Below, piece after piece: positions 7,970 through 9,197 of a stretch of 37,464 bases of DNA. Origin of the DNA: Candidatus Azobacteroides sp. (GTDB taxonomy: Bacteria > Bacteroidota > Bacteroidia > Bacteroidales > Azobacteroidaceae); NCBI GenBank assembly GCA_009778655.1, contig WRFZ01000171.1, positions 1 to 37,464 on the forward strand. Reading direction: 5' to 3'. The translations under genes were made by a program, and so were the position numbers. How positions within the stretch are numbered: the first letter of the stretch is position 1; every line of letters starts with the position of its first letter. Under the pieces are notes generated by a model. It made no database searches. It saw nothing but the letters and a program-made list of their open reading frames with translations, and had not been told where the DNA came from.

Positions 7970-7977
7970 TATCTTTG
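7970..7977 (+). promoter_or_regulatory. -7 promoter box upstream of the deleted nuclease gene
   Basis: TATCTTTG matches TAnnTTTG and lies 42 nt before the ATG at 8020. No good -33 box is seen. Retention of a promoter suggests the shortened gene may still be transcribed. Confidence 0.45.
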
Positions 7978-8019: not shown

Positions 8020-8610
8020 ATGGAAAATTTCGATGAACCGGAAGAGAGGTATCTGAATCCGTTAACGGATTTCGGATTTCACAAAGTGTTTGGAACGATG
8101 GTAGGAATTTTGGATTTCGTCCTTTTCGATGAATCGGAAGAAGACAAAGAACAGGTAATCGAGTACGTTCAACTTGTACGGGAGCGAACAAAGACGCTTT
8201 ATTCGGATAGATTGAAATTTGTATTTATCGAATTGCCGAAATTCAGAAAGACGGAGGAAGAATTGGAAACCCGATTCGACCGATGGTTGTTTATACTGAA
8301 AAACTTATACAAATTAAAAGAGTGTCCGGTATCAATTCGGGATAATATTTTTAAAGAGTTGTTTCAATTAGCGGAAATAAAACAATTAACAAAAAAAGAT
8401 ATGAGAGCATACAAGAAAAGTATAACGGATTATCACGAAGTTCGCAGCGCCATAGATTGCGCTCGCGAAGAAAGCTTCGAAAAAGGCGTCGAGAAAGAAA
8501 AAATTGCTGTCATTCAAAAATGCCTTCAAATGGATATTCCGATAGAAGTAATTGTCGGAATTACCGATTATTCAAAAGAGCAAATAATGGAGATGAAAAT
8601 TAAAAACTAA
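8020..8610 (+). CDS. Rpn/PD-(D/E)XK nuclease-family protein lacking its nuclease core
   Basis: The 196-residue product starts with YLNPLTDFGFHKVFGT (residues 11-26), the usual opening of Bacteroidetes Rpn-family PD-(D/E)XK transposase-like nucleases. It then passes directly into GILDFVLFDE and the C-terminal helical part (KFRKTEEELETRFDRWLFILKN, broken here for length: residues about 78-99; then AREESFEKGVEKEK at 149-162). Full-length relatives are about 290-310 residues, with the catalytic D and ExQ motifs in the stretch that is absent here. The reading frame is intact across the junction near residue 26, so this looks like an in-frame internal deletion of about 100 residues rather than a frameshift. 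Nuclease activity is not expected. The 3' end overlaps the convergent glycosylase gene by 4 nt. Confidence 0.75.
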   Translation: MENFDEPEERYLNPLTDFGFHKVFGTMVGILDFVLFDESEEDKEQVIEYVQLVRERTKTLYSDRLKFVFIELPKFRKTEEELETRFDRWLFILKNLYKLKECPVSIRDNIFKELFQLAEIKQLTKKDMRAYKKSITDYHEVRSAIDCAREESFEKGVEKEKIAVIQKCLQMDIPIEVIVGITDYSKEQIMEMKIKN

Positions 8611-9197
8611 TTTAATATCTCGTATGCAAATAATTCAGTTAATGCATCAAACGATACGGATGCGCCGGCTCTCGGAGAGGTAGAATATAATAATACAATC
8701 TCAAGCGATTTGCCGTTGATAGTAACCGTCGTTCGGAGCGGTCTTTTTCCTTGAGGAATTTTGAACGAAATCCCATGCAAGGAAAGATAATTCTTGAACC
8801 AACCGATTGCACTCGATTTACCGGAACTGCTGGTAAAAATCAATTTTCTGACCGAAGGATTTTCCCGTAACAATTTGAAAATATCCATATAAGCAACGAT
8901 TTCCAAGTTTTGGTCAAGGGAACTGTCGGTTTTTCGGCGAATGATTTGTCCCATATCGGATACACCCAATTTCAGATGATTCAACAGTTCTTTTCTTTCG
9001 TTAACGGCCTCTTCCCCGTAAAGATAAAGCAAAGGACGTCCGACAATTCGAGCCATCAATTTCCAAAAATAATTGTTTTTATTCGGATAAAAGAAATCGA
9101 ACGACCAATTGCGTCGCGTAGGCGGAAACGTGCCGATTACAACAGTCTCTGCCCCGTCGGGAATATACCAATACCAAGGATGAATTTCTTCTTGCAT
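8607..9197 (-). CDS. Uracil-DNA glycosylase superfamily protein (MUG-like)
   Basis: This 196-residue protein has the superfamily layout. The motif VIGTFPPT at about 19-26 corresponds to the active-site GxxPS/GEAPG region, FFYPNKNNYFW at 35-45 corresponds to the pyrimidine-binding segment, and LLYSTSPRAG near residue 170 corresponds to the C-terminal PSTSP motif. It is likely a cytosolic base-excision enzyme acting on uracil or mismatched bases; the exact substrate is not shown. The gene is convergent with the deleted nuclease gene (4-nt overlap) and divergent from the GldB-like gene. Confidence 0.75.
   Translation of the reverse strand: MQEEIHPWYWYIPDGAETVVIGTFPPTRRNWSFDFFYPNKNNYFWKLMARIVGRPLLYLYGEEAVNERKELLNHLKLGVSDMGQIIRRKTDSSLDQNLEIVAYMDIFKLLRENPSVRKLIFTSSSGKSSAIGWFKNYLSLHGISFKIPQGKRPLRTTVTINGKSLEIVLLYSTSPRAGASVSFDALTELFAYEILN

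Follow-up and report, generated by a model that had tools for sequence, protein, structure and literature searches.

Rpn proteins have recently been recognized as anti-phage toxins. Because the toxin gene itself contains the antitoxin, the two should co-evolve. Zhong et al. (2023, PMC10327210) describe an antitoxin, RpnS, which inhibited RpnL both in vivo and in vitro, and also separate rpnS genes. In E. coli, 4-residue repeats tune the recognition between RpnS and RpnL, and a mismatch of one repeat abolished inhibition in RpnC (PMC10327210). The active site was probed in E. coli RpnA, where the substitutions D11A, D63A, E82A, and Q84K led to loss of all three in vivo effects, D63A abolished cleavage, and toxicity was kept in Q84A and R94A (PMC5350276).

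The gene described here lies in the window, the whole stretch of 37,464 nucleotides that was analyzed, from a Candidatus Azobacteroides genome. Azobacteroides-like bacteria live in termite guts. The source genome, an 89.6% complete draft, comprises 182 contigs with a total of 2.9 Mb. As anatomy, the window gene is near certain to be a toxin-dead rpn gene that still encodes a complete RpnS antitoxin module.

An rpn gene without its nuclease core

The gene (8020..8610, plus strand) was delimited by its open reading frame, profile matches, and paralogue alignment. It starts with ATG and encodes 196 aa without a stop, and both the leader start and the C-terminus are intact; the disrupted reading frame by which a pseudogene is recognized was not found. 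The protein passed the Pfam gathering score for PF12784 (PDDEXK_2) with 69.7 bits (cut-off 27.4), with its residues 28-146 matching only positions 112-227 of the 229 in the profile. TIGR01784 was matched over positions 112-272 of 273 with 46.6 bits, below the NCBIfam cut-off of 52.1. The gene shows that a protein can lack the catalytic core and still score above the Pfam threshold for a nuclease/transposase family.

Three full-length close paralogues, C177, C172, and C166 (L002, L003, and L004), are present in the same genome, with amino acid identities to the window gene of 91%, 80%, and 77%, respectively, over the shared part. A fourth paralogue, C114, is distant (42% identity). In a codon alignment with C177, codon 26 is followed by an in-frame loss of 279 bp, or 93 codons (residues 27-119). 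With the split placed optimally, the first 130 bases of the gene differ from C177 at 7 sites, and the cut point can be shifted by 1 nt. At the junction (8097..8098) no perfect repeat was found, and 1 nt is shared. The closest candidate in C177, an imperfect repeat, is spaced at 291 rather than 279, and a repeat-mediated deletion in the window gene was not supported. With a microhomology of 1 nt, the junction is explained well neither by repeat slippage nor by an overlap-based misjoin.

The deleted stretch holds D67, E81, Q83, and R93 of C177, while D17 is kept in the leader. The equivalents of these five residues are invariant in 40 aligned full-length relatives. D67, E81, and Q83 line up with the expected PD-(D/E)XK residues of RpnA (D63, E82, and Q84), and the catalytic D ... 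E-x-Q of the core, which falls within the deleted 93 codons, is absent from the window gene. Judged by its position, D17 of the leader probably corresponds to RpnA D11.

An initial annotation, made from the sequence alone, had proposed an Rpn-family gene that keeps the N-terminus to about residue 26 and lacks a nuclease core carrying the catalytic residues. The C177 alignment bore this out in each part, and the loss, put there at around 100 residues, was fixed at 93. The full-length paralogue that it suggested looking for was found in four copies, one of them distant. The short repeats that it proposed to look for at the deletion endpoints were not seen as perfect repeats, unlike in three other core-less genes described below.

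The retained leader, codons 1-26 (8020..8097), carries the conserved motif YLNPLTDFGFHKVFG, most positions of which are invariant or nearly so in alignments of the 40 relatives. It is followed by the post-core remainder of the PDDEXK_2 domain, codons 27-127 (8098..8400), recognized by the PF12784 match; its model is of low confidence up to about residue 40. From a conserved internal ATG (Met128), a candidate separately translated RpnS frame of 69 aa (8401..8610) is suggested by synonymous-site conservation in near relatives.

The C-terminal region is predicted to be RpnS-like

The window protein was modeled with AlphaFold from 42 sequences, giving a mean pLDDT of 75 and a pTM of 0.44. Residues 1-40 were poor (pLDDT about 50), and residues 161-196 averaged above 90. 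A full-length relative from the same genus, L093, gave a better model (pLDDT 85, pTM 0.76), in which the strands 66-72 and 77-83 carry D67 and E81-x-Q83.

Residues 146-191 of the window protein (8455..8592) were aligned with the solved E. coli RpnA-S (PDB 7th0) over 46 of 46 residues (Z 5.7, rmsd 1.9), and this chain came first among 210 re-aligned chains. In L093, residues 239-284 matched 7th0 with Z 6.9 and rmsd 1.5, the first of 1000. For the window model 7th0 was tied in Z with the serine recombinase 2r0q (Z 5.6, rmsd 9.6), and for L093 with 2r0q (6.3) and the TrpR-like chains 3g1c and 3frw (6.1). We preferred 7th0 over the tied chains because it matches at the homologous place in the gene, is aligned along its entire length, and gives a low rmsd. 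In Foldseek searches of the PDB, neither model gave a match at E <=0.001, and with the window model as query 7th0 came in 17th place (E 3.7, prob 0.69). RpnA was the top PDB sequence match of both profiles, non-significantly (E 0.18 and 0.22). The models thus predict an RpnA-S-like antitoxin/oligomerization fold at the C-terminus of the window protein, with a Z that is modest for helices.

Within this region lies a hypervariable block of 4-residue repeats, SFEK-GVEK (8473..8496), which was identified in protein alignments. Counted by eye, the window gene has 2 units, C166 has 1, C177 has 3, and C172 has 5. The repeat number of the window gene therefore matches none of the three close paralogues, a comparison that leaves out the distant C114 and the copies at contig ends of an 89.6% complete genome.

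Upstream element and genomic surroundings

A pattern scan placed a candidate Bacteroidota -7 box, TATCTTTG, at 7970..7977 on the plus strand. The pattern TANNTTTG was counted 39 times in the window, where chance would give 39.7, so the box alone proves nothing. A similar TAACTTTG is present upstream of the C177 and C166 paralogues, with a mismatch at that place in C172. Both the frame and a -7 box had initially been described as retained; the frame is, and the box is a candidate.

The neighbors, among 20 frames scanned, are mostly housekeeping and transport genes: GAPDH, a beta-lactamase-like hydrolase, GldB, and an ABC/MacB efflux set. PADLOC gave no match for the window gene and a weak one for C177 (E 0.0012, 'putative invertase'). 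The adjacent gene on the minus strand (8607-9197, 196 aa) is conserved in the genus and had no Pfam match at E 1e-5. Its orthologues in 11 relatives show 66-71% identity and lie beside gldB in 7 of the 11 loci. Ten relatives had the downstream side of this orthologue on the contig in the fetched loci, and rpn was absent from the same place in nine of them; the remaining one, G034, has a distant-type rpn about 1 kb away. The window rpn gene is probably a lineage-specific arrival.

Elsewhere in the source genome (G000), further rpn copies of another subtype are truncated at the contig ends of C140, C107, C156, and C32. Repeats of the rpn family probably break this assembly.

Core-less rpn genes in other genomes

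The window protein was searched against 45 genomes of the family and 393 of the order, and the core-less gene L113 (below) against 395 of the phylum. In the order and phylum searches at most 8 or 12 candidates per genome were scored, and the draws overlap. Among the matches listed from these genomes, there was no other two-ended, one-piece match in a short frame; the phylum search with L113 matched the window gene over L113 residues 6-191.

L113 (Saprospiraceae, CAKZUV010000122.1) is an in-frame core-less gene of 193 aa, found as one of 80 loci from genome contigs. A second, G042:C142 (L173:1919-2242, 108 aa), was a match of the family search recognized on inspection. The order was then searched with this G042 mini, which gave G400:C277 (L271:1498-1806, minus strand, 103 aa) and G370:C822 (L272:753-1064, 104 aa); the G042, G370, and G400 minis come from three bacterial families. 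With the G370 mini as query against 395 phylum genomes, inspection of 15 short frames gave G609:C16 (L328:1158-1520) and two copies with degraded leaders. G609:C16 encodes 121 aa, with residues 1-61 joined to residues 218-288 of its relatives.

Several side observations accompany these genes. Core-less copies with degraded leaders were seen in G629:C99 (L327) and G760:C44 (L308:1489-1764). G609:C16 belongs to a genus rich in full-length rpn genes, and G400 has no other rpn relative above the search thresholds; its mini looks orphaned.

A tree of the C-terminus with the first five cases (106 rows, 87 columns, bootstrap not settled) needed five separate origins, at least four of them forced by starred branches. 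When G609:C16 was added (110 rows, 74 columns), six origins were needed and five were forced. Judging from these trees, the in-frame core-less form is rare in our samples yet has arisen repeatedly, in six cases of separate origin with the window gene included. The initial annotation had allowed for the case that many members of the family are naturally this short; short core-less forms do exist, but they are the exception, with six in-frame cases including the window gene. No description of core-less Rpn genes was found among the literature matches listed from open PMC papers.

The G042, G370, and G400 minis have a common cut point, (K)LF/(A)AEIA, and L113, G609:C16, and the window gene are cut elsewhere. 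The same junction occurs in the degraded G760:C44 (KIF/IAEIA) and in the gut phage-like contig MT835698.1. In 139 full-length genes, the two cut places share a short in-phase repeat with the core in between. Over 15 nt, identity between these KLF places was 54%, compared with 27% when the register was moved by whole codons, and the longest exact run averaged 4.5 against 2.5 nt, reaching up to 10. Because the repeat is in phase, a slip between the two places excises the core and necessarily leaves the frame intact.

Mobile elements were also searched. A tblastn search with the G370 mini gave six plasmid records and one phage record, two of which were inspected. On the plasmid OY726017.1 (Phocaeicola massiliensis; L322:929-2321), an rpn gene whose frame shifts in the repeat region precedes a short in-frame copy, which has the C-terminal region and a degraded leader. 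MT835698.1 (L321:2501-2632) carries a 43-aa frame in which an Rpn leader runs straight into the start of the C-terminal region (RLF/EEAEIAKFT), and then a stop. An exact peptide-pattern scan of viral contigs found no relative.

Selection, frame keeping, and the internal start

The dN/dS between the window gene and C177 was 0.16 over 196 codons. Over the same columns, dN/dS was 0.11-0.17 for pairs of full-length genes (computable for 9 of 10 pairs) and 0.12-0.24 for pairs that include the window gene. By parsimony, the window branch has 4 nonsynonymous and 6 synonymous changes, or 8 and 7 when all ambiguous changes are added. If nonsynonymous changes are taken to make up 0.70, 0.74, or 0.78 of neutral substitutions, a count this low has a probability of 0.047, 0.024, or 0.010, and with the ambiguous changes of 0.13, 0.07, or 0.03; site counting put the neutral share at 0.81. 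Since the window branch also spans the period preceding the deletion, constraint on the branch is no proof of constraint on the short form. Two changes specific to the window gene, N172D and G183D, lie at positions where five other near genes agree; the distant C114 also has D at 183. The G042 mini gave a dN/dS of 0.58 against its closest copy, from few changes.

Broken copies were then compared. Core deletions that are out of frame and keep the leader and C-terminus were found in G039:C28, G001:C50, and G260:C11, and G284:C16 has an out-of-frame core deletion with a shortened C-terminus. Core-less copies with both ends were in frame in six of nine cases (the window gene, L113, G042:C142, G370:C822, G400:C277, and G609:C16), or six of ten with G284:C16, and the binomial chance under an expectation of 1/3 was 0.04-0.08. 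This count leaves out the leaderless L079 and L174, as well as G629:C99, G760:C44, OY726017.1, and MT835698.1, which have a degraded leader or an early stop. The sample is biased, and selection was not supported by frame keeping: the count says nothing firm on selection, because three of these genes, G370:C822, G400:C277, and G609:C16, came from searches with core-less queries, and because a KLF slip preserves the frame in any case.

Remnants inside contigs of the 45 family genomes were sorted by hand. At least five were C-only (G042:C290, G036:C101, G001:C70, G023:C309, and G023:C178) and at least three N-only (G036:C140, G015:C264, and G040:C38), with many other partial copies ending at contig ends. 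Preferential survival of the C-terminus was not seen in these genomes. Two loci showed further rearrangement. G039:C28 (L176:1700-3500) holds a tandem rpn duplicate, in which a full-length gene is followed by a downstream copy that is 93% identical and has the out-of-frame core deletion and a different repeat length. In G044:C118 (L253:1014-1314), an rpn N-terminus is split between the two strands, with residues 1-40 on one and the overlapping residues 33-98 on the other, a layout such as an inversion would leave.

Synonymous sites were analyzed for signs of the internal start. In 10 near relatives, an excess of unchanged synonymous codons was found around Met221 of C177, which is Met128 of the window gene (ATG at 8401). 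The best 19-codon windows fell within codons 205-234, with the peak at 208-232 (permutation p about 0.012, for a patch that was noticed before testing). No peak at Met221 was found over 119 sequences (p 0.60) or in 60 disjoint pairs, and there was no family-wide signal of an internal start. The conservation in near relatives is a hint at most of separate translation from ATG 8401.

Discussion

The steps that we propose are as follows. A single in-frame deletion of 279 bp would have removed the nuclease core from a full-length rpn toxin-antitoxin gene, and the resulting gene would encode the leader, the post-core region, and the RpnS antitoxin module. Its product, whether translated whole or from ATG 8401, would not cut DNA, would be expected to dimerize via the C-terminal helices, and might neutralize or poison a full-length Rpn of fitting repeat number. 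We tentatively read the window gene as an antitoxin-only or dominant-negative allele. The initial annotation had left the choice between a decaying gene and an inhibitor or regulator form. Both still stand, and the inhibitor side has gained a concrete basis, since the retained C-terminus models as the RpnS fold that was reported to block full-length Rpn (PMC10327210).

Neutral decay is also quite possible. A random deletion, in frame by accident, would have inactivated a dispensable or harmful nuclease gene, and the remaining frame would have no role and would erode. Broken rpn copies are common in the family, and genomes of the family and order include the four out-of-frame core deletions; the core-less copies G629:C99, G760:C44, OY726017.1, and MT835698.1 have degraded leaders. 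PADLOC did not match the gene, its neighbors are of housekeeping type, and rpn is missing at the same place in nine of ten relatives. The repeat number fits decay as well, and weakens the antitoxin reading, because with 2 units against 1, 3, and 5 the product may have no present partner. Against decay, the frame, start, and C-terminus are intact, there are few nonsynonymous changes on the window branch, and the same architecture with an intact frame is present in five other genes of separate origin. On balance, an antitoxin-only role appears slightly likelier than plain decay.

Rather unlikely is a narrower explanation, which overlaps with an antitoxin-only role rather than excluding it: translation from the internal ATG at 8401 would yield the antitoxin, the fused leader would be irrelevant, and RpnS would be all that the gene contributes. 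The synonymous conservation around Met221 in the 10 near relatives would fit; however, the signal is absent from the larger samples, the patch was noticed before the test, and Met128 lies 18 residues ahead of the RpnA-S-like stretch, which would make the product longer than E. coli RpnA-S. An assembly artefact, in which two rpn copies were misjoined or full-length reads collapsed, was raised by the initial annotation and is suggested by the 182-contig draft with other rpn copies at contig ends, but it is very improbable, because an overlap-based assembler should hardly be able to join 1 nt of overlap without spanning reads, the gene lies inside a 37-kb contig, substitutions against C177 occur on both sides of the junction (6 of them in the 78 nt to its left), and C177 has an unrelated upstream flank.

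An antitoxin-only role of the window gene would be one instance of a wider process, which we consider quite doubtful in its full form. Rpn genes would repeatedly collapse by in-frame excision of the core into expressed antitoxin-only genes; a KLF slip would leave the leader and RpnS, and the minis, like the repeat-free version in the window, would persist as protection against Rpn toxins that are resident or arrive on mobile DNA. If true, this would be a recurrent one-step route from toxin to antitoxin-only gene that uncouples toxin from antitoxin, and it would provide natural separation-of-function alleles for testing partner recognition by RpnS. The part that should be new to specialists is the recurrence of the core-less architecture together with the in-phase repeat that favors such loss.

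The closest described systems differ from the window gene in definable ways. E. coli Rpn with an intragenic RpnS (RpnA-S, 7th0) likewise has a C-terminal helical domain and variable 4-aa repeats; the window gene, by contrast, has itself lost the nuclease part and carries the antitoxin region joined in frame to the native leader. E. coli Rpn belongs to PF04754 (PMC5350276), whereas the window gene matches PF12784. The separate rpnS genes of E. coli likewise place the antitoxin region outside an intact toxin gene, and those named in PMC10327210 are second copies downstream of the parent gene. The window gene stands alone, keeps the parental start and the 26-codon leader, and has about 100 residues between core and tail. 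The gene order on OY726017.1 resembles that of rpnE-rpnES in E. coli. Within the source genome, C177, C172, and C166 have the nuclease core and other repeat numbers, unlike the window gene. The core-less L173, L272, L271, L328, and L113 share with the window gene a leader joined in frame to the C-terminal region without catalytic residues, but each of them groups with other full-length genes.
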